Program-made: the position numbers and the translations under genes | NCBI RefSeq assembly: GCF_000313135.1 | Contig: NW_004457384.1 | Coordinates: 187,374-251,373 of the forward strand | Length of the DNA: 64,000 nt | Source of the DNA: Acanthamoeba castellanii str. Neff | Taxonomy: Eukaryota; Discosea; Longamoebia; Acanthamoebidae | Direction: 5' to 3' | Notes under the pieces: generated by a model | Databases searched by the model: none | Seen by the model: only the letters and a program-made list of their open reading frames with translations | What the model was told of the DNA's origin: nothing | In this document: in pieces, positions 19,302-42,066 of the stretch | Numbering within the stretch: the first letter of the stretch is position 1 | Layout of the letters: each line of letters starts with the position of its first letter

Positions 19302-19451
19302 ATGAAAGACCTCAAGGAACCGCTGACGACAGCCAAGCACGCGAGGAAGGTGAACAAGCACTGCAGCTGCCTGTCGTTTTCGTGCCGGTGGAAGATCTTC
19401 AAGTGCTTCCGTGCCATCCGCAAGAAGTGCTGTTGCTGCGTCAAGTGCTGA
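19302..19451 (+). CDS. Small Cys-rich basic peptide, family member A (49 aa)
   Basis: One exon, MKDLKEPLTTAKHARKVNKH then CSCLSFSCRWKIFKCFRAIR then KKCCCCVKC, stop TGA at 19449-19451. Two further genes in this window (41384-41533 and 41932-42066) encode the same core: KxNK, SCL, RWK[IL]FKCFR, RK and a Cys cluster. Conservation across dispersed copies, with equal length in A and B, argues that these are true genes. The middle can form a basic amphipathic helix, and the Cys block at the end suggests S-acylation or metal binding (inference). An upstream in-frame ATG at 19236 is possible, but the shorter start matches the other members. No signal peptide and no recognised family. Confidence 0.75.
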   Translation: MKDLKEPLTTAKHARKVNKHCSCLSFSCRWKIFKCFRAIRKKCCCCVKC

Positions 19452-19836
19452 CTCGATCGCCTTCCCTTTCTTACGCCACCGCTATTTATGATGTACCATA
19501 AACATGTACAGAATTATGCCACCTCTTATTTATCGTTTGCAATTTGTTCTGGTCGGCCACGTTGGCGAAGAAGGCCTCCTTCCCCAGGGGCCGTGAACTG
19601 CGTCTTGCTGAAGGATAGACCATTAATTCATTATTATTACTCCGCCCACTCCGAAATTGCAGGCCTTGTGGTCCTGGTCTTGGGCCAAGGGGCCACAACA
19701 TCTTTCGATTACATCAAGAGCAGGCTTTCTTGTGGAACTGTCGCGTTCGTTCGGTTCCCACTAACACTCCAATCTCTGACCAGGGACCGATCCTTCGCAT
19801 CCTAGCGATTTTATCCACCACATAATTCTACATAAC
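19452..19836. other. Intergenic
   Basis: Peptide A 3' region and the promoter of the long helical-protein gene. The open frame here looks random; no RNA gene seen. Confidence 0.5.
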
Positions 19837-22800
19837 ATGTCCAGCGAAGAGATCGTTGAAACCCCCACCGAGACGTACGCCCGCCAAATCCCTCATCCAA
19901 AAATTGCAAGCTTGAGAAAGAATGTAGCAATTTAATTGATTCTCTGCGATAACACCCAACCTCTTCATCATCTTCTCCCTGCCCATTCTTTATCAATCTC
20001 ATCTTCAATTCCACCGCTACGCTGCAGGGAGGAGACGCCCAAGACGGATCAGCAGGAGCAAGCCGGCGGCAAAAAGCGCGGGAAAAACGTGGCCGCTCTT
20101 GCCGGCTCCCTCGGCGCCTCCATCCCCATGGCCGCCCCCGGCGGCGGCCGCGGAGGTGGTCGTGGTGGCCGCGGCGGCGGCAAGGTCGCGGCGCTGGGCC
20201 AGGGCCTCAACCTCAACGCACTGCTCGGGTCGGGCGGTCCGCCCGGCATGGGCCGCGGCAAGCCGCCCAAGAAGCAGGCCGAGGCCGAGGCGACGGCGGC
20301 GGACGAGGAGCCGGGCAAGAGCAAGGAGGACGAGGGCGAGGACGAGGCCGAGCAGAAGGCCCGCGAGGAGCTCGAGCGCGAGAAGGCAGCGACCACGACG
20401 ACTGAGGAGAGCGGCAGCCTGGTCCACCGCACCAAGAACCGCCCGCGACCCACCCTCCGGCGCCAGCCCTCCGAATTCCCCGTCCCGTACTCTACGCCTC
20501 ATGTGTGTGTGCGTGTGTGTGGTGTGTCGTGCGGCTCACCTGTCCGGTGTGGCGGCGCATGCGGTGGCACAGGTGGAAGCCGGAGGACGGGCAGCCGGAG
20601 GAGGAGGGCGGTGCGGTGACGCTCGCGCAGCTCAAGGCCGTCGCTGCCGCCGAGGCCGCCGCCGCCGGGGACGAGAGCCCCCAGCAGGAGCAGACCGAAG
20701 AGGGCACCGCCGCCGCCACCGCCACTACCAACGAGCAGCAGCAGCCCGCCGAGGACGACGCCGCTGCCGAGGAAGAACAGAAGCGGAAGGAGGAGGCCGA
20801 GCAGGCTGCCGCCGCTGAGGAGGAGAGGAAGCAGAAGGAGGCCGAGGAAGCCGCCGCTGCCGAGGAGGAGCGTAAGCGCAAGGAGGCTGAAGAGGCCGCC
20901 GCTATCGCAGCCGAGGAGGAGAGGAAGAGGCTCGAAGCCGAGGCCGCCGCCGCCGAGGAGGACAGGAAGCAGAAGGAGGCCGAGGAGGCCGCCGCCGAAG
21001 AGGAGCGCAAGCGCCAGGAGGCCGAAGAAGCCGCCGCCGCTGCCGCCGAAGAGGAGCGCAAGCAGAAGGAGGCCGAAGAAGCCGCCGCCGCCGCCGCCGA
21101 AGAGGAGCGCAAGAGGAAGGAGGCCGAGGAGGCTGCCGCCGAAGAGGAGCGCAAGCAGAAGGAGGCCGAGGAAGCCGCCGCCGAGGAGGAGCGCAAGCAG
21201 AAGGAGGCCGAAGAGGCCGCCGCCGAAGAAGAGCGCAAGAGGAAGGAGGCCGAGGAGGCCGCCGCTGCCGCCGCCGAGGAGGAGCGGAAGAGGCTCGAGG
21301 CTGAAGCCGCCGCCGAAGAGGAGCGCAAGCAGAAGGAGGCCGAGGAAGCCGCCGCCGCTGCCGCCGAGGAGGAGCGCAAGCAGAAGGAGGCCGAGGAGGC
21401 TGCCGCCGCCGCCGAGGAGGAGAGGAAGCGCAAGGAGGCCGAGGAGGCCGAGGCTGAAGCCGCCGCCGAAGAGGAGCGCAAGAGGAAAGAGGCCGAGGAG
21501 GCCGCCGCCGCCGCCGAGGAAGGAGGAAGAGGAGCGCAAGAGGAAGGAGGACGAGGAGGCCGCCGCTGCCGCCGAAGAAGAGCGCAAGAGGCTCGAAGCC
21601 GAAGCCGCCGCCGAGGAGGAGCGCAAGCGCGAGGAGGCCGAAGAGGCCGCCGCTGCCGCCGCCGCCGAGGAGGAGGAGCGGAAGAGGAAGGAGGCCGCCG
21701 CTGAGGAGGAGCGCAAGCAGAAGGAGGCCGAAGAGGCCGCCGCCGCCGAAGAAGAGCGCAAGAGGCTCGAAGCCGAAGCGGCCGCTGAGGAGGAGCGCAA
21801 GAGGAAGGAGGCCGAGGAGGCCGCCGCCGCGGCTGCTGAAGAGGAGCGGAAGAGGCTCGAGGCCGAGGCCGCCGCCGAGGAGGAGCGCAAGCGCAGGGAA
21901 GCCGAGGAGGCCGCCGCCGAAGAGGAGCGCAAGCAGAAGGAGGCCGAAGAGGCCGCCGCTGCCGAGGAGGAGCGGAAGCGCAAGGAGGCCGAGGATGCCG
22001 CCGCTGCTGAAGAAGAGCGCAAGAGGAAGGAGGCCGAGGAGGCCGCCGCCGCCGAGGAGGAGAGGAAGAGGCTCGAGGCTGAAGCCGCCGCCGAAGAGGA
22101 GCGCAAGCAGAAGGAGGCCGAGGAAGCCGCCGCCGAAGAGGAGCGCAAGCGCCAGGAGGCCGAGGAAGCCGCCGCCGAGGANNNNNNNNNNNNNNNNNNN
22201 NNNNNNNNNNNNNNNNNNNNNNNNNNNNNNNNNNNNNNNNNNNNNNNNNNNNNNNNNNNNNNNNNNNNNNNNNNNNNNNNNNNNNNNNNNNNNNNNNNNN
22301 NNNNNNNNNNNNNNNNNNNNNNNNNNNNNNNNNNNNNNNNNNNNNNNNNNNNNNNNNNNAGCGTAAGCGCAAGGAGGCTGAAGAGGCCGCCGCTATCGCC
22401 GCCGAGGAGGAGAGGAAGAGGCTCGAGGCTGAAGCCGCTGCCGAAGAGGAGCGCAAGCAGAAGGAGGCCGAGGAGGCCGCTGCCGCCGCCGAGGAGGAGA
22501 GGAAGCGACGTGAGGCCGAGGAGGCCGCTGCTGAGGAAGAGCGGAAGAAGGAGACCGAGGAGGCTGCCGCCGAAGAGGAGAGGAAGAGGCTCGAAGCCGA
22601 AGCCGAGGCCGCCGCCGCTGAGAAGGAGCGCACGCGCAAGGAGGCCGAGGAGGCCGCCGCCGAGGCGGAGAGGAAACAGAAGGAGGCCGAAGAAGAGGCC
22701 GCCGCCGCTGCTGCCGCTGAGGAGGAGGAGGAGCGGAAGCAGAAGGAGGCCGCCGCCGCCGAAGAGGACAGGAAGCGGAGGGAGGCCGAAGAAGAGGCGG

Positions 22801-23027
22801 CCGCAGCTGCTGCGGAGGAGAAGAAGAAGCGAGAGGCGGCCGCGGCCGAGGCCCAGGAGGCGGAGGAGGCCAAGCGGAGGAAGGTGGGCGAGCGGCAGGC
22901 GGCCCGGAACCAGTTCGTGGAGGACGGGGAGGACCTGGCGCCCGTGCCCAGCAGCTCCGGCTCGAGCTCCGGCCAGTCAGCCTTCAAGGTGCCGCCGTGC
23001 TGCAAGCAGTTCTGCGTCCTCTTCTAA
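19837..23027 (+). CDS. Long Glu/Ala/Lys/Arg-rich helical protein with C-terminal CaaX box
   Basis: Start MSSEEIVETPTE at 19837. A first intron ends CGCTGCAG before 20030, and a second (about 20487-20571) joins PEDGQPEEEGGAV. The N-terminal part has an RG/GG stretch ([15 protein letters not shown]). From about 20770 to 22870 the protein is made of about 12-15-residue units such as EEERKRKEAEEAAA. Such sequence forms a single alpha-helix or coiled coil, used as a rigid spacer in cytoskeletal proteins. The C-terminus is VPPCCKQFCVLF: CVLF fits a CaaX box, and upstream Cys residues could be palmitoylated, so membrane anchoring is likely (inference). A 178-N gap and a frame slip near 21520 break the repeat region, so the assembled CDS is not continuous. 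Confidence 0.75.
20770..22870 (+). repeat. Tandem degenerate coding repeat (E/A/R/K units)
   Basis: GAGGAGCGCAAG..GAGGCCGAGGAGGCCGCC-type units repeat for about 2 kb, in phase except for one slip. The repetitiveness explains both the gap and the likely assembly error. Confidence 0.95.
22182..22359. other. Assembly gap (178 N)
   Basis: Run of Ns inside the E/A/K/R repeat gene. The coding phase before the gap differs by one from that after it. Confidence 1.
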
Positions 23028-23167
23028 AGCAGAACACCACCAGCAACACTTATTTTAGCTAAAATAAGAGTTTAAAAAATACAATAAAATAAAATACAAA
23101 TTATTCTCTTTATGTAAAATGACTTTGTATTTATTCACCCTAATGGGTTGTAATTGAGACGAGCCTG

Positions 23168-23494
23168 CTACTCCTCGCGGAAGAGGCACAGCTTGCGGCC
23201 GGCGACGTCGGCGTTGAGTACGCGGCCCTCGCACGAGGACTTGAGGTGGCACTTGTTGTGCAGCCACTCCACGGCCACGGCTTCGGCGCGCTGCGTGCGC
23301 TCGGTGTCCTCGCTCCACGCGAACTCGCCCCGGTACCGGCCTCCGCCACCGGGCAGCGAGGCCGTGAGCACCAGCTTCTTCACCTTGCGGCCGCCCATCG
23401 TGGGCGCTCCTGACACTGAGCGCGGGTTGATCCTCGTCGCCTCCATCATCTCCCCATTGTCGTACTCCACCACCGCTTCCAGTACCGACGCCAT
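23168..23494 (-). CDS. Small protein of unknown function (108 aa)
   Basis: MASVLEAVVEYDNGEMMEAT at 23494, stop TAG at 23168-23170. Body: VSGAPTMGGRKVKKLVLTAS, a Gly run, YRGEFAWSEDTERTQRAEAV, WLHNKCHLKSSCEGRV and KLCLFREE. Codon composition resembles neighbouring genes and the frame is closed on both sides. I do not recognise a family. The frame stays open upstream of the chosen ATG but only with non-ATG starts. It converges with the helical-protein gene about 140 bp away. Confidence 0.6.
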   Translation of the reverse strand: MASVLEAVVEYDNGEMMEATRINPRSVSGAPTMGGRKVKKLVLTASLPGGGGRYRGEFAWSEDTERTQRAEAVAVEWLHNKCHLKSSCEGRVLNADVAGRKLCLFREE

Positions 23495-23840
23495 TGAGAA
23501 GTAGTTGTTAGCGGTAATATTGGTGCGTGAGGCGCACCGCGAGCTTTGTGCAGGTACAGGCTTGTGGCGACGAAGCGGAGAAGGTGATTCGAGGAACGAC
23601 AATAATGAACCCTACAAGTAAGGTGGCGGTTGACGTGTGAGCATGTGGGTGTGCTGTGCCGGGATGTGGAATGCGAAGTATGCGATCGAGGAGTTACCGA
23701 CGGTTCGCGTGGTTAGGCGAACAGGGCGACATTCGGCAAAACTATTTTTCGTGTGTTGAGCCCCACCAGGTACTTGTGCTGTGCTGTGCTGTACATGTAG
23801 CAGTTCTCTTTACTACACACCACACACAACACAAGCAAAG

Positions 23841-24526
23841 ATGGAAACCATGCGTCTGGTGTTGCTCGGTTCGGGAGGTGTGGGCAAGTCTTGCATCACC
23901 ATCCGCTACGTTCAGGACTCCTTCGTGACCGAGTACGACCCCACCATCGAGGACAGCTACCGACGGCAGGTCGAAGTAGACGGCCAACAAGTCATGCTCG
24001 AGATTCTCGACACAGCCGGCACCGAGCAGTTCACTGCGTACGTGTCTTCCCTTCATCTTTTTCTTCCTCTACCCGTTGCAATCTTGACTTCTTAAACCTT
24101 GTGGCTGACTTCGTCTTCTACACGCATGCACACAGTATGCGGGACTTGTACATGAAGAACGGCGATGGTTTCATCCTCGTGTACAGTATCATCGCGCGAT
24201 CGACCTTCAACGACCTTCCCGACCTGCGACAGCAGATCTTGCAGGTCAAGGACAGGGACGAGGTGCCGATGGTGCTGGTGGGCAACAAGTGCGATGCCGA
24301 CGACCACCGCCAGGTGAGCCGAGACGAGGCCCAGCGGCTGGTGGACAAGTGGGGCAGCTCGGCCAGCTTCTTCGAGACCTCGGCCAAGCAGAACCTGCGG
24401 GTGAGCGACGTGTTCGCAGACCTCACGCGACGCATCCTTGAAGAAAAGCGAGGCGGCAAGGACGGCAAGAAGAAGGGCCGAAAGTACAACAAGGACGGAT
24501 CGTCCTCCAAGTGCACCCTCTTCTAA
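23841..24526 (+). CDS. Rap-family small GTPase
   Basis: Start [20 protein letters not shown] at 23841, stop at 24524-24526, one intron (24039-24136). All GTPase motifs are present: P-loop GSGGVGKS, effector loop [12 protein letters not shown], switch [21 protein letters not shown], and ETSAK. Thr instead of Gln at the Ras-61 position (DTAGTEQF) and the [14 protein letters not shown] segment are Rap hallmarks. A basic C-terminus ([11 protein letters not shown]) leads to CTLF, a CaaX box, so it is prenylated and membrane-bound. Rap1 in amoebae controls substrate adhesion, myosin and phagocytosis. Confidence 0.96.
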
Positions 24527-24656
24527 ACGCACAACACTATTGTTTTTTTAAAAAACTTGTAAATACACATGCACAGAGAATGAGAAATTATTGCAGTAAC
24601 ACAGGGAGAGAGAAATATATCTACATGAAGGTGGTGTTCGTGTCGGGCCACGCGGA

Positions 24657-25091
24657 TTAGCCGTTCCAGCGGTGGGTTTCGACTTGCGCGATGCCATCGA
24701 TCTTGATGGTGTCGAGTTCGACGTCGGGCGTGGGCTCCTCGTTCAGCGCCGCCATCACGAGGCCCTGGCCGTGGTCCGCCGCCAGCCGTCGCTGGCGCGC
24801 CTTGTACACCGATGCGCCCAGCACCACCACGGCCAGCATCAACAGCATCACGCAGACCGCCACCGTGCCTGCATTATTATTATTATTATTATTCGGATTA
24901 TATTATTCGGCCGGCACATCAGCACACCATGGCACCAGCACGCGTGTTGTGTCGTGTGCTAATTGAAGCGTGCGGTGATTGAGCGTGTGTCGAGTACCCA
25001 GCACGATGCCGAGCACACGGCTTGTGTCGGTCGAATCCGCGCTCGGCGGTTCCTCACAGTAGGTGCCCTGCGCCAAATGGCACGACGGACA

Positions 25092-25143
<52 letters not shown>

Positions 25144-28100
25144 TGAGGGAAATGGACTGGCACGTGTTTGCGGCGCGATCAGTTTGGCGTACGGAGTAGC
25201 CGTTGCGGCAGGAGCACCCGGCGGTGGTGCAGGTGCCCGTGTTGGAGCAGAGCACGCCGTCGTTGATGCACCGATAGAGCGAGCTCGTGGGCTGGCCCTG
25301 GCAGCGGGCCTCGGCCAGCGCGCGCAGGATGGCCCGCCGCACTTGCGGCAGCACACCCGCAACGATCGCCCCGTTCCTGTGTGTGTGTGTGTGTGTGTGT
25401 GTGTGGTGTGCGGTGTGGCATGTGTGCGCACGCGCGTGTTAGCGTGACATTGGCCCACGATGTACGCACGCACGACGCCAAGAGAGGGTGAGCGCACTCG
25501 AGAGCGTCGTCGAAGGCGTTGGTATCGGTTTGGGTCCACCACAGGAAGTCGTTCAGGGCACGCGCGCTCGCGCAGAAATTGGTCGGGTGGGTGTGGAAGG
25601 CCATCGCGCCCATCCCCACCAGAGGCCACCCGGTTGCATCGGGGCCTTCGCGAACACATTCACCGTAAGCCGCGGGGAACACGACACGAGCGCACACGCG
25701 CACACCGCACACGCGCACGACACGCGCGGGTAAGTACCGAGGGCGAGCGTGTAGAGGCCGCCGGTGGAGTTGGGTCCGGGTGCGCCGACGAGCTGCGGGG
25801 CGAAGTCGAGGAGGGTGGTGAGGAGGGCGTTGAAATCGAGCTCGACGAGCACTTGTTCGCCGTCGGGCTTCTCGCGGAGGACGTTGCCCGCCTGGATCTG
25901 CGGGCTGAGGGCCGCCGCCGGCCACACGGCGAACCCGTCGTTCAGCCCGTTCAGCGTGTTTGGCACGTCTGCGCGCGACACGACACGACACGACACACGC
26001 GACACACGCATCAATCATGACTTCTTCTTCTTTTTCTTCTTCTTCGCATCGCGTTACCTGACGTGGACACCGAGGTGTTGAGTGCGACCACGAACGAGTA
26101 CATGGACGATGCGTCGGCCACCTGAACACACGACACGACACGACACGACACGACACGACACGACACGACACGACACGACACGACACGACCAACGACACGA
26201 CACGACACGACACGACACGACACACAAACCACCACACGGATGAGCGTTTCTTCCGGAGAAGAGAGGAGAGGAGGGGAGGAGAGAGACGGACGGAGGCGTT
26301 GAAGAGTGGGACGGCCTTGGCGAGGAGCTGGTGGAGGGCGGAGGTCTCCACGCCGGACGCGGACGCCGACGCCGGATACACCACCCGCACGAAGCGGTCG
26401 GGCAGCACCACCAGCGGATTCAGACGACTCAAATTCTCGTGATTCCACTTCTGCGCTCGTCGCACACGCACACACACGCAGATGAGACACACGCGCACAG
26501 TGTGTCGTGTCGTTGGTCGTGTCGTGTCGTTGGTCGTGTCGTGTCGTTGGTCGTGTCGTGTCGTACCTGGATGCGGCCGAGGTAGATGTCGGCGATGGCG
26601 GGGAGATCAAAGGTGAGCAGGGGGGAGTCGGGGAGGGTGTAGGCCGGCACGTAGGGGAAGGCCGCGACCGGCAGCACCACCCGCCCCTCGCCGTCAGCCA
26701 TGGCCGTCGTCGTCTCGGACGGGTCGCCCCTGAGCAGCGCAAAGTCGGCGTTGCCGTGGCCCAACCCCGACAGGGCGACTGAGTCGGTGAGCACGGCCTC
26801 CACGTCGATCTCTTCGACGACGACACTGACCCGCGCGTAGTCATCACTACGACGCATGTGCGTGCGTGCGGCGGTGCGTGCGTGCGGTGTGTGCGGTGGT
26901 GAGTCTGAGAGAGCGGAGAACGCACACGCCCACCGGGGGGGGGGTACGAACGCCCATCGGGAGTAGAACTCGTAGGGCGTGCCCGCGAGGCCAAAGAGCG
27001 CCACCGTATCGAGAACGGCCAGCCCGTTGCAGGTGAACCGGTTCAACGAACCCAGCACACGCCTGCGCCACGCACCCAAACCGCATAAGCACGCGTGTGC
27101 GTGTGCGTGTGCGTGTGCGTGTGCGTGTGCGTGTGCGTGTGCGTGTGCGTGTGCGTGTGCGTGCGTGTCGGTGGAATTGAGGGCTCGAACCGGGTGTAGG
27201 AGGGGAGGAGCGGGGCGTAGCCGGCGGCGGTGGCGTCGTTGCTGGCCTGCGTGTTGGAGAAGGCCCACTGGAGGAATTCCGCGAACTGCTGGACGGGCAC
27301 GCACGAACCTCCGCCGGTCCGGTCGACGAAGAACGTCGCGAAGGAGAGGTACGACAGCGGCCAGCTGTCCTCTCCTGTGCGCGTCGCCATCAATCGAATG
27401 AAGACAATGATCAAGACAATGAGCTCTAATAATGATAATAATGATGACGATAATAATGATAATAATGATAACGATAACGATTGACGAGGTGTAGCAAAGT
27501 CGTACCGGGTCCGTTGAAGAGGTCGGCCGTGAGGTTACCGGCTTCGATCTGCGACTGCGCGTCGAGCATCGCTGCACGCGCGCGTGTGTACGATCAGAAC
27601 CTCGAATCAAACGCGCGCGCGCGCCACACAACGACACGACACGAGACGCATGCGCGATGGTATACCGGATTGTACGCCGGCGGTGGTGGCAGTGAGGAGA
27701 CGGCCGCCGCGATTCCACATCATAGCGGCGGGCAGCGACGTGTTGGCGAGCAGACCCACGCGCGCGTAGGTCAGCGCGTAGGGCGTGATCTGTGCGAGAA
27801 GCCACAAACTCGTGTTAATAATTTCGATGCGCTCCTGCGTGTTGCGTGTGTGCGGTGGTGCGTGTGCTACGTCGTGTGTGGCGGGAGTTGCAACGTACGG
27901 CGACGTGGTCGACGCGCTGCCGTGGGCTGACGAATCCTACGGAGCGGCCCTCCAGCACGGGCGGCAGCGACTCCATGTCCGTGAAGGCCGCGGCAAAATC
28001 GTAGCTGAACGACCCCAACGACCGAGCAAACGCCTGTCCACACAAAAACGAACAACACAACGCGCATCGCACACGACACACGACACACGCAGCACGACAG

Positions 28101-29044
28101 GCCATACATAACACGCATGACGCGCGACGCGCGACGCGTGATATGCGGAAAGAGATGAGGTCGAGAGGGGGAAGGGTGTGCGGAGGCGGTGGCGATGTAC
28201 AGAGGTCTCGTCGAAGGAGCTGTTGGTGCCGAAGACGGTGGTGATGTTGGCGTGGGGCAGGTTCATGGCGGGGTTGAGCTCGATGAGCGCGGCATCGTCC
28301 CACATCGCGATCTTGCCCTGCCAGATATCTGCCAGCACCGTCCCGTTCAGCACCTGTGACACACGACACACACGACACACACGGTCAGCTTGAATTTGAT
28401 GTGTCGTGTGGTTGAATCGGCGAGAGTGAAAAAGCGCACGAGCGTGGCGTTTGCGCCGGGCAGGTTGTAGGCGATGACCACCGTGTTGCCAGCGATCGGC
28501 AGCTGCACCACGGATTGACCGCCGGCGCCGGCCACCTGGGACTGGAGCACGGCGGGCGGCAGCGCGTCGTCCACCGCCGCAAAGTCGAGCTGGCCGCCTG
28601 GTTGCATGCAACACGGCTGGCGTGTGAGTCCCCCCCCCAAGAGCGAAGAGCGTTCGTGGGAAAGAACGAAGCGAGGTGTGGGTACTGAGGAAGAGCTGTA
28701 GGGCGGCGATGGCGGGCTGTGGCGTGTGGGTGACGGCCACGGGGCTCGTGGTGAAGGCGTGGTCGGCGCTCCACACCTCCCAGAGACTGGTGGTCAGCAC
28801 CCCTCCGCCACCGAACACATCGTATGCCCCACTTGCCGCACCTGCACAAGAATTAATATTACAATTATTGTTGTTATTATTTTAACAAAAAATACTGCTA
28901 AAAATCTTATAACGATGCAATACAAATAAAAATAAAAATAAAAGTCAGTTGGTTGTAATGGGTACCGGCAAGGATAAGAAAAAGAACGAAGGAGAGTGCC
29001 CACGAGGAAGAAAGGGACGAGCGCACTCCTGCTCTGGCGCGCAT
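24657..29044 (-). CDS. Large membrane protein with two PstS-like phosphate-binding domains, EGF-like motif and TM
   Basis: Start at ATG 29044 opens a signal peptide (MRARAGVRSS, ALSFVLFLILAG) spliced near 28973 to GAYDVFGGGG. Domain 1 (28850 to about 27180) has PstS-type blocks: SVVQLPIAGNTVVIAYNLPG, VLADIWQGKIAMWDDAAL, VGLLANTSLPAAMMWN and SWPLSYLSFATFFVD. Domain 2 (about 27050 to 25480) repeats the plan: VVLPVAAFPYVPAYTLP, IADIYLGRIQKWNHENLSRL, SMYSFVVALNTSVS, GWPLVGMGAMAFHT. A Cys-rich EGF-like segment follows (INDGVLCSNTGTCTTAGCSC, YCEEP), then one TM (VCVMLLMLAVVVLGASVY) and a tail of about 45 residues. Many introns carry GTGTCGTG repeats. Extracellular phosphate or ligand sensing is plausible; function is unknown and there is no enzyme domain. 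Confidence 0.82.
25093..25141. repeat. (CA)n microsatellite in intron
   Basis: About 24 CA units within an intron of the PstS-like gene; (GT)n on its sense strand. Confidence 0.95.
25378..25405. repeat. (GT)n microsatellite in intron
   Basis: About 14 GT units in the next intron of the same gene, with opposite strand polarity to the repeat at 25093. Confidence 0.9.
26127..26223. repeat. (ACACG)n pentanucleotide satellite in intron
   Basis: About 18 tandem ACACG units with a single AACG interruption, filling most of one intron. Shorter arrays of the same pentamer occur in other introns (e.g. 43785-43828 and 44060-44103). Confidence 0.95.
27094..27168. repeat. (GTGTGC)n hexanucleotide repeat in intron
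   Basis: About 12 tandem GTGTGC units between the two PstS-like halves. Confidence 0.95.
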
Positions 29045-32505: not shown

Positions 32506-32543
32506 GACCACCAGCGCTGCCCGAGAACTGCATCCTCTCCTAG
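30019..32543 (+). CDS. TPR-RING-LON protein (LONRF-type E3 ligase) with CaaX end
   Basis: A first exon of only METK (30019-30030) is spliced to SPTEIMADELLKRGN at 30120; the Met of MADELL (30136) is the alternative start. Three TPRs follow (DAYEAREYLMAVHHFSEVL; FEEALNDAHLVTTLAPNW; ALEAYEIANSMEPHDEEV), then a RING finger ([25 protein letters not shown], CPLC). The LON N-terminal-type domain is LFPLNAVVYPGMRFPMHIFE with RYRLMLRRCM and CRRRFRV-like strands, continuing through DDLQFSYWMSTILPV. The tail is Gly/Met- and Gln-rich and ends PENCILS, a CaaX box. This order is that of animal LONRF1-3, ubiquitin ligases. Seven or so introns; the last is about 400 nt (31577-31973). Confidence 0.92.
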
Positions 32544-32860
32544 CCACATCACCGTCCCGACATCTCTCCTTCTTCCTCCTTCGACTTCGTCGCTTGCGAC
32601 GGGGTGCTCTGCGCCGGCTTCCGCCTTTCCGCAGCACAGACCTTATTTATTCGACGGGTGCAGCCACCTCTGTAATTACAACATCAACCAAGCACACAAC
32701 ATCCAGTAGCGCTACACAGTATATTGTGTACATATAAAATACAACAACATCAACAGCGTTAACCTCACTCGGGCACTTTAAACACGCCGAGCACAGCTCC
32801 CCACTCTGCGCAACAGTCAGCCGGAAACACGTGATGCAAATCGAGAGCGGCATTCCCGTC

Positions 32861-33052
32861 CTATTTCTTCTTGCCCTTTCCCGGTTCGCAGTGGCGCGAG
32901 CTGGTCTTCTCTGGTTGGCGGTGGCAGTTGATGGCGATGTTGGCACACTTGCTTATAAGTTGCGGAGAGATTGAAGACTTTGCTCCGATTCGCCCTCGCG
33001 AGCCGATGGCTCCGCTCTCTACACCCGAGGGGGCGAGGGCGCTGTTCTTCAT
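32861..33052 (-). CDS. Possible small protein (63 aa), low support
   Basis: ATG at 33052, TAG at 32861-32863. The C-terminal half is SKCANIAINCHRQPEKTSSR then HCEPGKGKKK, with spaced Cys/His that could bind zinc, and a basic end. No family recognised. It lies between the LONRF gene and a plus-strand gene starting 156 bp away, so it could also be a chance frame in their UTRs. Confidence 0.3.
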   Translation of the reverse strand: MKNSALAPSGVESGAIGSRGRIGAKSSISPQLISKCANIAINCHRQPEKTSSRHCEPGKGKKK

Positions 33053-33207
33053 GTCCTCCCCTCTTGTGGTCCCTTGGTTGTTCGTTTCCGGACCAGAGGA
33101 ATTACTCTCTCTCTCTCTCTCTCCTCTCCACCAGCAACTTGTTTTTTATTTTTATAGTCTCTCTCAGCATCTCTTTCGCTTTTCTACTTCACCCACCGCC
33201 TGCAAAG

Positions 33208-34557
33208 ATGAGCCATCACCACATGACCGCGGGTGTCGTCGAAGATTCAGGCCTCACGTCGCTCGCCCTGGCCAGCATCGCTCACTCGCGATCATCACCA
33301 CCCTCGAGGAGTTCTGTACAGATCAAACCTGCGCTACGTCGACCCCTGCGACGACACCACCGACCCTGGGAGGAAGACGAAGAGGATGATGATGCATCTT
33401 CCTCAACATCCTCACCATCGTCATCATCATCTACGGCCGAGAGCTGGACCAACCACGGCGTACCCCAGGACCTGACGTCGCGTCATCGGCCTCTTCCTCA
33501 TGACCGAAAAAGGACCAGCAGGCGAGTAAACGTAAAGCTCGAAACCGACCTGGGAGGCCCTCGGGACCACCTTCATCAACAAGATGAGGGCGATCGAGCT
33601 GCAGCTCCAGCTACCAGGACGAGAGCTGGACGGTCGAGGGCCAAGCGCGTCAAGGTCGAAGAAGAGCCCGCCCAACTACTAGGTGAAACGCGAGACCGCG
33701 CAGAGCAAGAAGAAGAAGACGTACTAGCACGACACGCGACAGAGCCTAGGGGCAAGGCGTCGCCCATGAGCCGTCCAGTGCCTGCATCACCTTCGCGACT
33801 TCCATCTCTGCCCTCGCTACTTCTTCCCTCCGCCCCCTTCCAACACCCCTCGTCGCACCCTCTTCTTCCCACGATGGCCGCTACACCGACCATCTTCACC
33901 CCCTCGCCTCCTTCTGCACCATCTTCCTCTTCCCTGGCACCGCAGACGAGCTACTACGATGCGGCGGTCCTACACTACTACCTCTCCCTGGCGGCCTGGT
34001 ACTCGCGCCCTCAACCAGACCAACAGCAGCCGCAACATCCCTACCCACACCTTCTACCCGCGATCAGCATGTCGTCGACCACGACTTCTACGTCCATCGC
34101 ATCATCTTCTGATCTACTGCCCACACAACCACAACATCTCGCTTCTTCGTCTACGCGCTTTCCTCCCATCGAGCCTTCTCCTTCATCTCCTTCATCTTCC
34201 ACTTCTGCTCAACCACCGGGCTTCGTCTTCAGGGACGAGACGGACAAGCTCGCCCTGGCCGCCGAGAGAAGGAGGCGCCGCTCGCTGACGACACCGACAG
34301 CGACGCGTTGGGACGACCGCCAACCGCTCCCCGAGCAGCGAAGCCCTCCGAGCTACGCCGGCCAGCAGGCAAAGAGCGAAAGCGACAACTACAAGAAGGA
34401 GAAGAACGAAGAGCCGACGGCGGGTGGTGAAGGCAACGAGCGCCAGGCTACGTGGCGAGACAGGCAGGGCTGCTTCACCTTCCACACCCTGGAGTCTCTC
34501 GAGGCGAGCAAGAAGAAAGGAGGCCGGGTGAGGTTGAAGTGGCGGAAAGACCCGTAG
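33208..34557 (+). CDS. Disordered protein of unknown function (449 aa)
   Basis: An uninterrupted frame from MSHHHMTAGVVEDSGL to RVRLKWRKDP, stop TAG. Ser/Pro/Thr-rich with acidic, basic and Gln patches, and no globular domain I recognise. Two sites fit the SUMO consensus (VKLE in RRVNVKLETD and VKVE in AKRVKVEEEP) beside basic stretches that resemble nuclear localisation signals. A Tyr-rich patch (SYYDAAVLHYYLSLAAWYS) and a final block (WRDRQGCFTFHTLESLEASK) look more ordered. A nuclear regulator is a guess. A second, spliced gene model cannot be excluded given the intron density of the neighbours. Confidence 0.6.
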   Translation: MSHHHMTAGVVEDSGLTSLALASIAHSRSSPPSRSSVQIKPALRRPLRRHHRPWEEDEEDDDASSSTSSPSSSSSTAESWTNHGVPQDLTSRHRPLPHDRKRTSRRVNVKLETDLGGPRDHLHQQDEGDRAAAPATRTRAGRSRAKRVKVEEEPAQLLGETRDRAEQEEEDVLARHATEPRGKASPMSRPVPASPSRLPSLPSLLLPSAPFQHPSSHPLLPTMAATPTIFTPSPPSAPSSSSLAPQTSYYDAAVLHYYLSLAAWYSRPQPDQQQPQHPYPHLLPAISMSSTTTSTSIASSSDLLPTQPQHLASSSTRFPPIEPSPSSPSSSTSAQPPGFVFRDETDKLALAAERRRRRSLTTPTATRWDDRQPLPEQRSPPSYAGQQAKSESDNYKKEKNEEPTAGGEGNERQATWRDRQGCFTFHTLESLEASKKKGGRVRLKWRKDP

Positions 34558-34897
34558 GGTTGCCTCTTTGTGCTACCCGGGTGGAATAGTAGCATGACCT
34601 AGTGAACTAAGTAAGTTGAACAACAACCACGCATTGGGCACATCTCAGCAATCAACACCTGCTTTCTCATTGGGGGGCTTTTTATAAAACCTGGCCGAAC
34701 CAAGGTCATCGGTTACCCGCCACCGGGGAAGCCAGGGAAGGTCATGTGCCGGTCATACGGAATTATATGTTGTGTTTTTATTTCTCTCTTACTTTACAGC
34801 ACACCTGGTGATGGCAGCAGCTGACCATCCACACCTCCTCGAGCCACCCGGTCGTGCGCTCCGCTCGCTTCTTTCTTCTTTTCCACCGTTCGCTCAT
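34558..34897. other. Intergenic between convergent genes
   Basis: 3' regions of the disordered-protein gene and the GATA gene. Nothing else seen. Confidence 0.5.
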
Positions 34898-36585
34898 TCA
34901 CCCGTCCATGTTCTCCACCGGCACGGGCGCAGGGGCTGCCGCAACGCTCTCCACCGCGGCGGCGAGCTCGTCGCCGTCGCTGTTGGCGTCGATGTTGTTT
35001 TGTGTCATCGCTGCGGCGAGAGCCGGCGTCGTCGTTCCGTTGTTCTCGCTGCCCACCACCGCACCAGCGCCGTGGGCCTGGGTGGTGGTGGCTGCAGGCG
35101 ATGTTCGGCGCTTGGCCAGCCGGACGGGCGAGGGCTGCCCCGCTGGCGCGTTCGGTAACCGCCGCCGCTTGGTCGCCGGCGACCCCTGTTCTTCAGCCTC
35201 GGCCTTCCCATCTTCTGCGACCAGCGCTGCAGGCGACGCTTCCTCAACGCCGCTAGCGCATTCCATCGCCGCGCCTCCGCCATCTTCCACCACCACCGAC
35301 GTTGCCTGGTGCTCGTCGTTCTTCTTCTTCTCATCATCGCCGTCGTCTTCCACATTCTTTCTCTTTCCGACGATGCTGCCGCTGTCGGCGCCGGCGGAGG
35401 CTTGATGGCCGTCCGAGTCGCCGTCGCGGTCCATCTCGTTGTGGCCGCCGTTCTCGCGGATGTCATCGCCCGCTGGCGTCGGCTCGACCATGGCCTCGCT
35501 CATATTGGCCGCCGACTTGAGACTGCTCTCTGCGCTCTGCTCCTCCTCCTCTGCGTCGCGGTCATCATCGCGCTCTCCCTCGGTCGACTGTTGTGGCTGC
35601 TGCTGCTGGCGGGCTGGCGCCGCGCCGGCCTGGCCCCACCGGGGCACGTACACGCTGTTCTCCAGCAAGTCGATCAACGTCTTCTCGATCGCCTTCTCCC
35701 TCTCCCTATCATACGTACGTCATCACACGTCAGCACGCGACACACGACACACGACACACACATGTTCATCTCGATCTCGTGTGTAAGCGAACCGTTTGAG
35801 GCGGGCGTAGTCGTGTCGCCTCTCGGAGCGGCCGCAGTCCTGGCAAAAGGTCTCGCCGCGCCGGCCCTTGCGCCACTGGGGCGTCTGGTCGGTCAGGCAG
35901 TTGTCGCAGTGGTCCTTGTACCGCACGTTGGCCTTCTTCTTCTTCATCACCTGGTGCAGCTTCGAGGCCGACATCGACCGCGACAGCAGGTGGCCCGTCG
36001 GCGACGCCATGTACGCTGCAGCGGCCGCCGCCGCCGCTGTGGCCGCCGAGGGCGAACCCAGGCCTCCGCCGCCGCCGCTGCTGCCGGCGTTGGCGAGGCC
36101 CAGGGAGGCGGCCAGTGCGGCGGCGACGGGGGCCGAAGCGCCAAAGGAGGAGGGCGAGGCGGCGGGCACGAAGAGCGTGGTGGTGGACGAGGGCGCCGAC
36201 GAGCTGAGCGACTGCGAGCCGCCGCGCGATGACGATGATACGAACGGGCTGCCGTGGGCCGAGCTGCTGCTTTCGTCATCCTCGGACGAGCTCGAGTTGA
36301 AGTGAATCGACGACGACGAGGAGGAGGAGGCGGCGGCGGTTGAAGAGGATGAAGGAGACGGTGACGCCTCGACGTAGACCCGGAGTGGGTGGCTTCGGTG
36401 GCGCTGTGTAGGAGGGGCGACGAAGACGTAGATGACGACGTAGAGCCAGTCGACAAAGTAGTGGTGGTTGTAGAAGTAGAGGAGGAGGAGGAGGAAGAAG
36501 AAGCTGCGAGTAGCGGCTGCAATGGCTCATGAGGTGGGGCACTGCCCGTGCTGGTGACGCTGCTCATCGAGGTGGTGGACGCCAT
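34898..36585 (-). CDS. GATA-type zinc-finger protein
   Basis: The core exon (about 36340-35795) encodes Ser-, Ala- and Gly-rich sequence and then one zinc finger, DHCDNCLTDQTPQWRKGRRG ETFCQDCG, with Cx2C-x17-Cx2C spacing and TPQWRKG as in GATA factors, followed by a basic stretch (RSERRHDYARLKRF). After an intron (about 35790-35710) comes EKAIEKTLIDLLENSVYVPR and an acidic, Gln-rich tail with a basic cluster (KRRRLPNAPAGQPSPVRLAK). Stop TGA at 34898-34900. Expected to be a nuclear DNA-binding regulator. The 5' end is tentative: the ATG at 36585 opens a Ser/Thr-rich frame in a different phase from the finger exon, so an intron or another start is needed between 36585 and about 36350. Confidence 0.82.
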
Positions 36586-37464
36586 ATCGCGCTTGCTACT
36601 GCTCTCTGCTGAGCAGCTCGTCTACTCTGCAGAAGCCAAGAAGGGGGCAGAGGGAGGAGGTGAGGAAGGATCTGTCCGCGGCACATAGGAGCACAGAGCA
36701 AAAGGAACGGCCAAAAGTGAGAGAGAAACGTGTCGAAGAAGGAGTAGAAGATGAACGACAAGAAGATGCGGATGCGTCACAACGGAAGGGCAAGATTTTC
36801 ACACAAAAGAACAATCTTGGCTCCCTTTGCTTTGTGCCATGAGTCCAGAAGGAGGAGCCCACGCTCGCATCCACGCCCGCTAGGTGCCAGGAGGCCATTG
36901 TTGTGTGCCAGGCAAATCCGACCAGACAAGCACAAGGATGACGAGAGCAAAACCTACTTCCCTGCAGGAAGTTGGCTGCCCGCTAATTTGGAGAGAGAAT
37001 CCAAAACCGGAGAGGGAGAAGGAAAGCCAAAGTACCTTCTTGCCCAACGAAGAAGGAGGCCCAGGGAAGTGTGTCCCTAGATTTGATTTGAAAGCGGCCC
37101 GCTGCACAAGAAGGCGGCAACGGTACTCTCCCGGCAGTGCGACTCCGGAGATTTGAGAAAAGGCAGGAAACACAAGAAGAAAATATTAAATTATGGGTAG
37201 CGCCCATTGGCTCGTCCAGGGCAGGCCACAACACAGGGTGTGAAGATGATGCACCATCTTCTGGCTTTCTTTGGTGAACGCTGTTGAGCTGTTGTATCCC
37301 TGCTGCCAGAGAGCTGGAAACCAAAGGCCTCCTGGTGCTGGGCCACTTGGCGCCAAAGAGTGTCGACATTTCCACGAAAGATTCAGAACAGCAGGCAAAG
37401 AGCGCTTCGCCTGGTGCAGCAACAATCACAAACGCAGGCGGTTGCGTAGAGCACGTAGCGCGAG
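36586..37464. other. Intergenic, about 0.9 kb
   Basis: Divergent upstream region between the GATA gene and the ankyrin gene. Open frames are short and overlapping on both strands with no similarity I recognise. Confidence 0.4.
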
Positions 37465-38967
37465 ATGGATTTGTGGTCCAGTAGCATGGAGGGTACGGCC
37501 TCCTGGCGATCTGGCCTTGCGTTCATCGTTGATATGGAGCACAGGCCCGGCACTACGCTGGGCATCAGGTCGTTGAAGAAAAGAATAATCAGCCGAGATG
37601 AAAAGGGAGATATCAAATCGAACGCACATTCTCGTCGAACAGCAGAAGGTGAGGAAAGCGAGGAGGAAGGAGACGAGGCCAGAATCGAGCAAGAGCAGGG
37701 CGACATGTACCAGATATCGGATGAGATTTTGCTGCACTACGCGAAAACCGGGGATCTCAAAGGACTGGAAGAACACATCGTGATGCATCGACGCTCTTCG
37801 GAACAGCGCCTCCAATTCAACGCCAACTGCACGGACAGGTACAAGCCTAAATCATTAATGAATAAAAATAATGCTCATGATTCATCATTCACCGTTCTTG
37901 CCCGCAGCATGTCGCCGCCATTGTTCTACGCCGCCGAGGGCGGTCACGAAGAGTTTGCCGCGTTTCTCCTGGCCAACGGGGCCGAGGTGGATGCGAAGAA
38001 CCACAACGACGTGACGGCCCTGTTCATCGCGGCGCAGGTGGGCGCGGCTAGCGTGGTGCGGCTGCTCATGGACAAGGGCGCCGATCCCAACCTTCGATCA
38101 ACGCGAGACGACGTGCTGCCCCTCTACGTGGCCTGCTTCGAGGGCCACCTCGACGTCGTGAAGGAGCTCCTCCTCTTCCACAACGCCAAGGAGTGCGAGG
38201 AGCAAGGTGCCGATCTCTCTGTGTGCGTGTGGTTGTGTGTGTGCGTGTGCGCGCGTGCTGAAGCTCTCTCTCTCTCTCTCTCTGTGCCTGGCAGGCGGGT
38301 CAGAACTGCCGATGAGCGTCAACATGGTGAATGCGGCGGGCGTGGGCGCGGATGGGAGCACAGCGCTGATGGCCAGCTGTGAGCGAGGGCACAAGGACAT
38401 CGTCGAGTTCCTTCTCTCCTACGGCGCCGGTACGACCCTACGGCCGTCAATCACTCACTCAATGGTCTTGACGTCTCTCGATTCTGCACTCACTAGAGAA
38501 CTGGATTGCTTCTTTTGCAGAGAAGGACGCGCGAGGCAAGAGCGGAGAGACCGCTCTTATGTGGGCCGTGCAGGAGGGCTACTTCGGCATCGTCGAGCTC
38601 CTGCTGCAACGGGGCAGCAGTGTAAATATCCAAAAGAACGACGGCGCCACTCCTCTCTTTCTCGGTACCGCACCTGCCTCACCCCAATTTCATTTTCACC
38701 CCGCTCTCTTTCGGCTGCACGTTGACCGGCCAAACTTCAATGGTTCTTGTTGTTGTTGTTGTTGGATGCCGGTGTTGTTCGTTCGTTGCAGCGGTTCTCA
38801 GTGGCGATACGCGGATGGTGTCTCTGCTCCTGGCTTACGGCGCACGCAACGAGATCCCCAACGACCAGGGCGAGACGCCGCGCATGGTGGCACGACGGAC
38901 CGGCCTACACGACATCGCCCACCTGCTCCTCGTCCCACCACCTTTCTCCCTCGTCGACCAGCTGTAG
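37465..38967 (+). CDS. Ankyrin-repeat protein
   Basis: Start MDLWSSSMEGTASW at 37465 (an internal Met, MEHRPGTT, is possible), stop TAG 38965-38967. A charged N-terminal region of about 80 residues precedes ISDEILLHYAKTGDLKGLEE. Ankyrin repeats follow over five exons: PPLFYAAEGGHEEFAAFLLA, TALFIAAQVGAASVVRLLMD, LPLYVACFEGHLDVVKELLL, TALMASCERGHKDIVEFLLS, TALMWAVQEGYFGIVELLLQ, and AVLSGDTRMVSLLLAYGARN ending TPRMVARRTGLHDIAHLLL. No other domain. Probably a protein-interaction scaffold; partner unknown. Confidence 0.88.
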
Positions 38968-39155
38968 CTGGCGCTGCAACCAACCAAGCACCGCCCAACG
39001 AAGACCACATTCATTCTGTACAAACTAGAGGGCCGCGTGCTGATGAAGTTGGCGTTGCACCAAGTTTATGCGATGATGACAAGCAAGTGGGACACGCCAT
39101 TGGTGGGCTGACACAGCAGGGTGTGTGCGGGCTGAAGGTGCGAACGACGAAGCGC

Positions 39156-40217
39156 TTAGAGCTGGCCGCAGTCGGCGATGACGCACTTCTTCCTGGGGGC
39201 GTCATCAGCGTCAACGGTCTGCGACTCGACCTTCCTGACTGAATTGAGGAAGGGGAAGCGGGAGGCGATGGGTTAGAGCCAACAACAAACAGAGACAAAA
39301 ATTGGCTGATGCTGAAAGAGGTGGGAGGAACGCACTCACGTCCATGCCGTCAACAACCTTGCCGAACTGGTTTGTTCATTCACAAAGGGACGGTCGTGAT
39401 TAGTGAGGCCGATCGTTAAAGCGCCCCAAGATGAGCGAAGGAAAGGTGGGTGGGTCGTTCCGTACCACGACGTGCTTGTTGTCGAGCCAAGTGGTCTTAA
39501 CGGTGCAGATGAAGAACTGGCTGCCGTTGGTGTTGGGACCAGCGTTGGCTGCGCAATGAGCAAGCCCGAGGTCAGCGCGGATGCCAGGATTGAGAAAGCG
39601 TGTAGAGGCGGCGAAGTGGTAACTGTACCCATGCTGAGGATGCCAGGGCCAGTGTGCTTCAGCTTGAAGTTCTCATCCCTGAACTCACCACCCTGCGCAC
39701 AAAAACAAATGTAAAATGTGAAACCGGTTAATTTGTGCAGTAGATAGAAGCCAAGAGTAAAGTGACGTACGTAGATGGACTCGCCGCCAGTACCGTTACC
39801 CGCGGTGAAGTCGCCACCCTGGATCATGAAGTCCTGAAGAAAACGAAATTGAGATGAGCCTCTACAAAGAAATAATCGCGAGTACAACCACTTCTTTTTG
39901 AGGATCTCCTCAAGTTATACTCGCGATTATTGCAGCTTCGACCGACAATGTACCTTGATGACGCGGTGGAAGGCGCAGCCCTTGAAGTGGAGGGGCTTGC
40001 CCGAGCGACCAACGCCCTTCTCACCAGTGCAGAGAGCCCTGAAGTTCTCAGCAGCTGTTGAAAAGAAAAGAGGGGCAGAGTCAATTGAACGGACAGACGA
40101 CGAAGGGGACGCAAGGATCGCACTCTTGGGGACGACATCAGCGAAGAGCTCCATGGTCACACGGCCGGCAGCTTCGCCACCGATGGTGATATCGAAGAAA
40201 ACGCGAGGATTGGCCAT
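39156..40217 (-). CDS. Cyclophilin A-type peptidyl-prolyl isomerase
   Basis: Start [20 protein letters not shown] at 40217, stop TAA at 39156-39158; six or seven short introns. Catalytic and binding residues are in place: [55 protein letters not shown]. The insert [16 protein letters not shown] matches the divergent-cyclophilin loop of plants and nematodes. A single-domain cytosolic cyclophilin of about 172 residues, a cyclosporin-binding foldase. The C-terminus is [11 protein letters not shown]. Confidence 0.96.
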
Positions 40218-40597
40218 TCTGATGATGCAATGAAAGAAAGAAGCGAACGATAAGCAACAGCGATTCGCCACGCCTCAATCGCAGCGTGAAGGGATGAGAG
40301 GAGTACGTTTACTGTGGGGCGAAGTAGGCGTAATGAGATTTTTAACTGGACCCACGCACAACAACTCGCTGGTCGGTGGTGCCTGCGAAATTTCGGCAGG
40401 TCCACCGCGGCCACAACTTTGGCGGTGGGCCAGGGTGCCTCACGAAGCCAACCGAAACAAGGCAGCAATGGTTCGGAAGTGTGTAGTTTATCTCGTCAAC
40501 TGATGCTTGTTCACATGCTCTTGTATGGGGGATAAAGGAAAAAGAAACCGGTTCCAGTTCTGGGTTGGTCATATCTATGATGCCCAGTGCAGCAGCT
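40218..40597. other. Intergenic
   Basis: Upstream region of the cyclophilin gene and downstream region of the next minus-strand gene. No gene supported. Confidence 0.5.
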
Positions 40598-40865
40598 CTA
40601 GAAGAACTTGAAGGGGGAGAGCGAGCCAGCAGCGGAGACCTCGAGCAGGAAGACGACGCTGTCGGCGTTGTAGAGGCCGTCGTTGCCATCGTTGTCGGCG
40701 GTCAGAATCGTGGTGGAGCCGGCTGGGACCACCACGGGCGAGGCGGCCACGTTGACGCCCTGCACCACGCTGGTGGAGCTCACCACCGTCGTGGAATCCT
40801 CACCATCAGCCAGGGCCACGGCGAAGAGGCAGAAGAAGGCGAACAAAGTAGCGACGAGGAACTTC
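40598..40865 (-). CDS. Small secreted protein, first exon not found
   Basis: The exon begins after acceptor CATTGACAG (40866) and encodes a hydrophobic leader (KFLVATLFAFFCLFAVALA), then DGEDSTTVVSSTSVVQGVNV, PVVVPAGSTTILTADNDGND and LLEVSAAGSLSPFKFF, stop TAG at 40598-40600. The leader with an ALA-DG boundary reads as a signal peptide, giving a mature protein of about 65 residues rich in Val, Ser and Thr. The initiator ATG must be in an upstream exon I could not place within 40870-41050. Function unknown. Confidence 0.5.
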
Positions 40866-41383
40866 CTGTCAATGTGAATGATGAAGGTGAGCCCACAACA
40901 TCATCGATCAACATGTGCTTCAGTGTCAAGGTGTCAAGGCGGGGCGATAGAGTACATCGTGTGGCTATAAGCTGGTGGTGTAAAGGGCCTGAGGCTGTGG
41001 GTTACTTGGTCGCTGTGGAGGGATGATTGATGAACTGCAAGTGTGGCGTGGCCCTGTTTTTATACTGTAGCACCATCAGCGGAGGCCAGCAAGCCTGGAG
41101 CAATTGGAACGGAAACCCGCCCAAGAACTGTTTCGATCAGGTTTAGTACGCTCCGCCCTTGCTGGGCTTGGTCTCCTTCCTGCAGAACTCACCCACCACA
41201 AGAGAGAAATGTTGGGCAAAAAAGACGCCCCGAAGCCTGGTGAAAACCGACACTTTAAAAACTGCTTTTCGACCAATCGTGACAGTGTGAACTGTAGTTG
41301 CAATTTCGTTGCCTGCGCCACCAGCGCAACTCTCTCCGTTGCGGGGGGGGGCAATACACTTGGCCACATTGTTGGATGCGAGC

Positions 41384-41533
41384 ATGGGGCGGAGGATCTC
41401 GAGGAAGGATGTGAAGAGGGCGCACAAGGCCAACAAGGCCCTCAGCTGCCTCTCCTTGAAGCAGCGGTGGAAGCTATTCAAGTGCTTCCGCAAGTTTAGG
41501 AAGAAGTGCTCCTGCTGTTTCCGTTCCTCCTGA
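41384..41533 (+). CDS. Small Cys-rich basic peptide, family member B (49 aa)
   Basis: One exon, MGRRISRKDVKRAHKANKAL then SCLSLKQRWKLFKCFRKFRK then KCSCCFRSS, stop TGA at 41531-41533. It is exactly as long as member A and shares its KxNK, SCL, RWKLFKCFR and RK-C-CC core. The frame continues upstream to 41309, but the ATG at 41384 gives the length seen in A. It lies 400 bp upstream of member C on the same strand, so B and C look like a tandem pair. Confidence 0.72.
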   Translation: MGRRISRKDVKRAHKANKALSCLSLKQRWKLFKCFRKFRKKCSCCFRSS

Positions 41534-41931
41534 CCAACAATCAACCTGTGGTAGTCTCTCTCACCCTCCCTTTCTTTCTTCATTCACTTGTCTCACGCCC
41601 CCCCCCTGACCGCAGGCGCCAGACCGCAGTAGTCATTTATTTATTTATTTATTTATCGAGTTCACAAATTGTAAAAAATAAAACGGGAAAAAACGTTTTC
41701 CTGTTCACTGTCCGTGTCCAGGCGCCCAGTTGCGGGGCTGGCGGTTTTTTGTTCTTCGCCTCGACGTACGCCGCTCAAACTCAAGCAAGCTGCTCCGGAA
41801 GTCCCCCAAAGGTACCTTGGCCCCACCTTGTACGACCCTCACTGAGCATCTCTCATGCTCCGGCGGCCGGCGTTTGTCTTCACCGCACGAGCAGGAAAGT
41901 AGCCGCACCGCACACAACCCACCCAACAAAA
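41534..41931. other. Region between peptide genes B and C
   Basis: 3' flank of B (with a TTTA-repeat at about 41635-41656) and the promoter of C. No gene supported. Confidence 0.5.
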
Positions 41932-42066
41932 ATGGACGACATGGCGGATCTGAAGAAGGCGAAGAAGATGAACAAGTTCTGTTCGTGCCTGCCCATGTCG
42001 ATGCGGTGGAAGCTCTTCAAGTGTTTCCGCAAGATCAGGAAGACGTGCTGCTGCTGTTGCAAGTGA
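41932..42066 (+). CDS. Small Cys-rich basic peptide, family member C (44 aa)
   Basis: MDDMADLKKAKKMNKFCSCL then PMSMRWKLFKCFRKIRKTCC then CCCK, stop TGA at 42064-42066. The ATG follows CAACAAAA, an A-rich context usual before starts here. An acidic-amphipathic start, the conserved RWKLFKCFRKIRK basic helix and a final run of five Cys. AATAAA-like signals follow at 42150-42180. It converges with the ROCO gene 143 bp away. No known family. Confidence 0.78.
   Translation: MDDMADLKKAKKMNKFCSCLPMSMRWKLFKCFRKIRKTCCCCCK

Follow-up and report, generated by a model that had tools for sequence, protein, structure and literature searches.

Three micropeptide genes in the window

We find that a 64,000-nucleotide stretch of the genome of Acanthamoeba castellanii str. 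Neff (contig NW_004457384.1, positions 187,374 to 251,373; hereafter the window, in whose numbering positions are given) carries three related genes for very short, basic, Cys-rich peptides. All three open reading frames (ORFs) lie on the plus strand: member 1 (P0001, 19302..19451) encodes 49 amino acids (aa) with 9 Cys and a net charge of +12, member 2 (P0002, 41384..41533) likewise 49 aa with 5 Cys and a net charge of +17, and member 3 (P0003, 41932..42066) 44 aa with 8 Cys and a net charge of +10. These positions and lengths, including the equal length of two members, are those given in an earlier sequence-only reading of the window. Alignment of the three gives 22 invariant columns, and a core DNA pattern marks RWKIFKCFR in member 1 (19386..19411, +) and RWKLFKCFR in members 2 (41465..41490, +) and 3 (42004..42029, +). 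This pattern occurs three times in the window versus a mean of 0.00 over 100 shuffles, which bears out the earlier view that chance is an implausible origin of the shared core. When gene regions of 2.3–4.2 kb each were compared by blastn (E up to 0.01), similarity among the three was confined to the ORFs (blocks of 92–113 bp, 71.7–75.2%), plus one 17-bp match elsewhere.

The three ORFs contain no internal intron; a mean of 6.2 introns per A. castellanii gene is given in a passage of PMC4053784. For member 1 an in-frame ATG lies upstream at 19236, which would give a 71-aa form longer by 22 residues. The public relative P0004, described below, starts with MKDLKEP, identical to the start of the 49-aa ORF, and 19236-19301 also resembles an intron end (TTTTTTGCAG); member 1 may thus have an intron on its 5′ side.

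Further copies in the genome and public relatives

In the 38.4-Mb assembly that was searched (250 contigs; tblastn counts are lower bounds), the exact core pattern occurs in five places, namely the three window genes and two places that we call C64 and C68. The assignment of this assembly to Acanthamoeba is based on a profilin that agrees with 1acf, an Acanthamoeba protein, at 123 of 125 residues; the JDP1 18S primer found no match in it, and the assembly may lack the rDNA. With P0003 as the query tblastn gave at least five matches, in these same five places. P0001 gave at least four and P0002 at least five, C68 being in neither set and the fifth match of P0002 being the weak C99, while the public relative P0006 gave at least six (two C64 exons, the three window genes and the weak C102). 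The tblastn check for other copies that the sequence-only reading had proposed has in this way yielded a fourth intact gene (C64) and a fragment (C68), and the family, described there as having three members, consists of four intact genes plus one truncated copy.

The genes had also been described as single-exon, which is right for the ORFs in the window but not for C64. Its exon 1 spans C64:11827-12004 and its exon 2 starts at 12070, with a 65-nt intron in between that interrupts a Gly codon behind its first base; the product is 86 aa long and carries a lysine-rich extension. Over 100 aligned bp C68 is 92% identical to the member 3 gene at its 3′ end, and the alignment extends beyond the stop codon. 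In C68 the first helix is missing, core positions conserved elsewhere show F-to-C and R-to-H changes, and the coding signature is the weakest of the five copies. We regard it as a partial duplicate that has degenerated.

No distant paralogs were accepted from the core-pattern matches with up to two mismatches or from the weak tblastn matches. Allowing up to three mismatches, the core pattern gave 82 matches in the genome versus 125 in a reversed control; the five without mismatch are the known copies, the three with two mismatches do not fit by eye, and the remaining 74 have three. The C99 match (E 0.04, internal stop) looks like chance on reading, and C102 (E 0.02, internal stop) and C122 (E 0.8) were set aside as weak.

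In the protein database P0003 itself is present, with three contigs listed, and besides it the relatives found were P0004, P0006 and P0007 only (2/167 and 4/975 candidates at E up to 10, in a search blind to much longer proteins and to relatives without shared 5-residue words). P0004 is identical to member 1 at 43 of 49 residues, the differences being L8I, H20Y, S22G, I32V, A38S and V47I, and is likely its ortholog. P0006 (85 aa) comes from a 2,836-base contig and differs from the spliced C64 product only in lacking one Lys. Accordingly, the form present on this contig is the spliced one, stemming either from RNA or from an allele whose DNA lacks the intron. Its source label 'lgn' we take to denote Logan assemblies of sequencing reads. 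P0007 (72 aa) starts within exon 1 and has 19 + 23 exonic residues identical to C64, the two parts being separated by 26 residues read through from a different intron; it ends in CASS, versus TST in C64. Given this near-identity, we suggest that P0004, P0006 and P0007 all come from Acanthamoeba.

On the same strand 3′ of the C64 gene lies a frame for a FAD-dependent oxidoreductase (L041 5696-6163, +; DAO match just below the cut-off), which by eye is like mitochondrial glycerol-3-phosphate dehydrogenase. The P0006 contig might hold both the micropeptide and this oxidoreductase frame.

Coding signature and selection

G+C content at third codon positions (GC3) is 0.88, 0.90, 0.91 and 0.83 in members 1, 2, 3 and C64, respectively, and 0.74 in the C68 fragment, with 0.85 in the training codons (n=478). 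As controls we used the 105 ATG-started ORFs of 40–60 aa in the window, members 2 and 3 among them. Of these controls 3, 3, 1, 4 and 12 attained the GC3 excess of members 1, 2, 3, C64 and C68, respectively, and 6, 11, 6, 14 and 33 their synonymous codon score.

Nei–Gojobori estimates of nonsynonymous and synonymous divergence (dN/dS) over the core were 0.326/0.946 for members 1 and 2, 0.300/0.618 for members 1 and 3 and 0.297/0.425 for members 2 and 3; over the whole length they were 0.491/0.960, 0.376/0.615 and 0.383/0.413. The ratios are moderate, with a range of 0.34–0.93 and dS based on 19–28 synonymous sites. We also redistributed the base changes of each pair at random; amino-acid identity as high as the actual one arose in 0–121 of 20,000 placements, depending on the pair and direction. 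The public relatives are stronger evidence of constraint than the paralogs, with 6 differences in 49 residues and an unchanged run of 42 residues, and the likely orthologs appear to retain the sequence. The sequence-only reading had made its case depend on other copies and purifying selection; the former exist and the likely orthologs keep the sequence, against which stand the paralog ratios, which are only moderate.

That the frames are not genes at all but chance frames or repeat remnants would be in keeping with these moderate ratios and with the fact that member 2 is without a known ortholog. However, zero core matches are expected by chance, conservation stops at the ORF limits, GC3 is of coding type and public protein relatives exist, which makes this explanation highly improbable. 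The four intact copies look like a genuine conserved family of protein-coding genes in Acanthamoeba, apparently restricted to this lineage. The family shows that a much-studied amoeba genus has conserved micropeptide genes no longer than 50 codons in its genome, and relatives of them are nearly absent from the databases searched.

Search for known families, structures and origins

Members 1–3 have no Pfam match above the curated cut-off. DUF6052 (PF19522) was matched below its cut-off of 25 by P0006 (E 0.0008, 20.1 bits) and P0007 (E 0.0012, 19.5 bits); in the genome exon 2 of C64 is its sole match (E 0.03), and at E up to 10 it matches one of the five aligned family members and none of P0001–P0004. 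With scores below the cut-off and most members unmatched, the likeness to DUF6052 is probably a chance helix match. NCBIfam likewise gave no match above cut-off, and its matches were just to a 96-aa C64 form, all of them far below. Among PDB sequences no match had E < 0.19 for P0001, P0003 or the family profile; the weak matches of P0003 were uteroglobin fusions and katanin (E 0.19–1.2). Foldseek comparison of the P0003 model to PDB gave four matches, including integration host factor (IHF) and RNA polymerase, that are not meaningful (E 5.5–9.3).

A viral or bacterial origin was also considered and rejected: 541 and 357 stretches fitted the pattern in IMG/VR and prokaryotic genomes, respectively, and tblastn confirmed none, in collections from which records close to the Acanthamoeba genome may be missing. 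In open-licence papers we found no account of such a family in the titles and abstract openings among the matches listed. The earlier statement that no such family is known therefore holds for Pfam, NCBIfam, PDB, IMG/VR, prokaryotic genomes and the protein database. As orphan small genes are common, we would regard the family as new as a family within the databases searched, and as ordinary in kind.

Peptide anatomy and predicted structure

The shared core had been described as K-x-A-x-K-x-N-K, S-C-L, a RWK[IL]FKCFR segment and a terminal Cys cluster. In a slightly widened form (K-x-A-x-K-x-[NT]-K, RWK[ILV]FKC[FY]R and the Cys tail) this stands, with the exception of S-C-L, which is absent from the spliced C64 product. 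RWK[ILV]FK is present at an internal position in all five aligned sequences. The same five, and P0007 as well, have invariant Cys at W+5, +13, +15 and +16, giving a constant spacing C-x7-C-x-C-C, and the remaining Cys vary. This tail is rare in the window, as C-x(0-1)-C-x(0-1)-C within the last 15 residues occurs in 4 of 285 ATG-started ORFs of 30–100 aa, three of which belong to the family.

The four invariant Cys with their constant spacing could suggest thiolate metal binding, either metallothionein-like, as the 9 Cys in 49 residues of member 1 and 8 in 44 of member 3 would allow, or at a four-Cys zinc site C-x7-C-x-C-C. The Cys content, however, ranges from 4/85 in P0006 to 9/49, only four positions are shared, the others being replaced in some members, and neither Pfam (above cut-off) nor PDB yields a relative. 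We consider metal binding quite unlikely. The sequence-only reading had left the Cys block as either a palmitoylation cluster or a metal site; a fixed Cys tail beside basic residues fits acylation, and the metallothionein-like content is not shared by the family.

AlphaFold2 (AF2) predicts helices at residues 3–13 and 22–38 of P0003, with a mean predicted local distance difference test score (pLDDT) of 71.5 from 4 sequences, and at 43–58 and 62–78 of P0006, with a mean pLDDT of 66.8 from 5 sequences and block means of 82–89 for residues 51–80. The core had been called basic and amphipathic; basic it is, while its amphipathicity is moderate and not above that of shuffles. Calmodulin binding was considered as well: spacings known from calmodulin targets were present as 1-8-14 in four of the five sequences and as 1-14 and 1-10 in all five, and as 1-5-10 in none; the first three of these patterns are loose ones.

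The extreme basic charge also raises the possibility of nucleic-acid or nucleolar binding. P0006, of the C64 type, has a net charge of +25, a lysine run and monopartite matches resembling nuclear localization signals (NLS). Such NLS-like matches were found in two of the five scanned sequences (P0003 and P0006), and nucleic-acid binding would leave unexplained the fixed Cys tail and the MGRRIS start of member 2; we think this role unlikely.

The highest mean hydropathy over 15 residues is 0.05–0.58, which is too low for a transmembrane segment. Such a segment is a feature of FAST-type fusogens, from which the peptides differ in this respect. By hydropathy there is also no signal-peptide-like stretch, the best 8-residue Kyte–Doolittle mean being 0.61–1.51 for stretches that begin within the first 25 residues; nor does the 71-aa form of member 1 have one, its best 8-residue mean over the first 18 starts being 1.09.

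The likeness to cecropins

Cecropins, which insects secrete, have a second helix that is hydrophobic, and the sequence-only reading was reminded of their start by the core. In papiliocin RWKIFK is present with conserved Trp2 and Phe5, in a sequence that as given in the relevant part of PMC4496781 contains no Cys. The micropeptides carry RWK[ILV]FK, in member 1 RWKIFK itself, with this Trp and Phe, like the N-terminal helix of cecropin and papiliocin; unlike there, the motif is internal and is followed by a Cys-rich tail, and no signal peptide is evident. Instead of the hydrophobic C-terminal helix after a hinge that is typical of cecropins, the sequences end in the Cys-rich tail. The match is real but local, and does not by itself speak for common descent.

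It could be argued that the peptides are endogenous antimicrobials, membrane-active helices of cecropin type released onto engulfed bacteria. The Trp and Phe of RWK[ILV]FK are indeed invariant in the family, and the window members have net charges of +10 to +17. For release one would have expected a signal-peptide-like stretch, which hydropathy does not reveal, and the hydrophobic second helix is lacking. Moreover, a Cys is fixed within the basic helix, no cecropin appeared among the PDB sequence matches at E up to 10 (P0001, P0003 and the profile), and a match of six residues easily arises by convergence. We hold such a role to be rather unlikely; if it is true, it bears on how amoebae handle ingested bacteria. 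A variant, in which a cecropin-like helix would be held on the cytosolic face by fatty tails as an antibacterial coat of peptides mostly shorter than 50 residues against bacteria or vacuoles breaching the phagosome, is very unlikely in our view. What the micropeptides share with cecropins is a Trp/Phe/Lys pattern for membrane contact, which suits an antimicrobial peptide and a membrane tether alike.

A putative cytosolic membrane tether

We favor the option that the micropeptides are cytosolic membrane tethers, to which we assign a probability of about 0.5. The basic first helix (K-x-A-x-K-x-[NT]-K) and the basic second helix (RWK[ILV]FKC[FY]R..) would rest on acidic lipid via Lys and Arg, and Trp and Phe would reach into the bilayer. 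S-acylation of the invariant Cys at W+5, +13, +15 and +16 by amoeba DHHC enzymes would then fix the peptide to the membrane, and member 2 would probably be N-myristoylated as well. The resulting peptide coat would serve the plasma membrane or the phagosome as a microprotein that masks charge or offers a docking site. Three features make us prefer tethering to an antimicrobial role: the Cys spacing is fixed, member 2 starts with MGRRIS, and no signal-peptide-like stretch is seen. Of the earlier interpretation, then, the new family is supported within the databases searched, the count of three is not, and of the two roles proposed tethering is favored.

In all five sequences the clustered Cys (W+13, +15, +16) follow a K/R-rich helix. 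The genome encodes candidate enzymes, with the DHHC domain (PF01529) in 15 stretches and N-myristoyltransferase (PF02799) in three stretches of one locus. Member 2 starts with MGRRISRK (41384..41407, +), which fits the N-myristoylation consensus MGxxxS/T as given in a part of PMC4736023. Among the 285 window ORFs MGxxx[ST] occurs in four and MGxxx[ST][KR] in one, which is member 2.

Type-II plant ROP GTPases are not known to need prenylation for membrane attachment. Their attachment requires two or three S-acylated C-terminal Cys, according to a section of PMC9363829, and a proximal polybasic domain, according to the title of a reference cited there. The micropeptides resemble such a tail in having a basic stretch followed by C-terminal Cys; in ROP, however, the tail ends a GTPase, whereas the micropeptide is nearly all tail and has no Gly-Cys box, and we do not claim homology. 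For sequences of the type of the sperm hexokinase HK1S, whose N-terminus as quoted in PMC4736023 is without Ser/Thr6, the same part of that paper describes targeting by myristoylation plus a second signal, either Cys S-acylation or a polybasic region. Member 2 similarly joins a putative myristoylation motif with Cys and polybasic stretches, but the MG start is found in member 2 only and the Cys cluster is at the opposite end.

Several observations weigh against the tether proposal or the family on which it builds. The myristoylation start is present in one of four intact members (member 2), and Cys with basic residues predict S-acylation weakly because it has no universal consensus, as stated in a passage of PMC8107437. 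Helical moments of 0.46–0.52 are no better than those of shuffled residues, 0.250–0.278 of the shuffles reaching them, and the confidence of both AF2 models is modest. No ortholog of member 2 was found, with zero candidates in the protein database. The whole-length dN/dS ratio of members 2 and 3 is 0.93, and because the ratio reaches this value the paralogs by themselves are no proof of strong constraint. The synonymous codon preference of members 1, 2, 3 and C64 is just fairly gene-like and less telling than GC3.

If the peptides do act as tethers, they would represent a membrane anchor reduced to little more than its signals and without an enzymatic part. Nature offers four variants of it for comparison, of which one begins with a myristoylation motif and one has a polylysine extension.

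Gene setting

Possible polyadenylation signals (AATAAA) are found 144 nt from the stop of member 2 (41677..41682, +) and 86 nt from that of member 3 (42152..42157, +), and none of the signals sought occurs within 250 nt 3′ of the stop of member 1. In the 300 bp upstream of each window gene, no 8- or 9-mer recurs across all three.

Facing member 1 is a minus-strand frame that by eye is like a dual-specificity phosphatase, Pfam giving nothing in the pieces tried. Frames at 20128-21704 (+) have LVHRTKNRPRPTLRRQP ahead of long AEEERKRKEAEE repeats, with nothing in Pfam; we take LVHRTKNRPRPTLRRQP to resemble a capping-protein-interaction (CPI) motif. Upstream of member 2 are an ankyrin-repeat gene at 37459-38379 (+) and, at 39930-40274 (-), a cyclophilin-type exon (PF00160 above cut-off). 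A kinase exon recognized by Pfam lies within ~43757-48333 (-), with frames further upstream on this strand that look Roc-like and leucine-rich-repeat (LRR)-like by eye, and the whole is possibly an LRR-ROCO kinase. Finally, the window has three 5S rRNA genes of equal score at 7489-7607 (-), 10813-10931 (-) and 12337-12455 (+), which are solitary, not arrayed in tandem, and occur on both strands.

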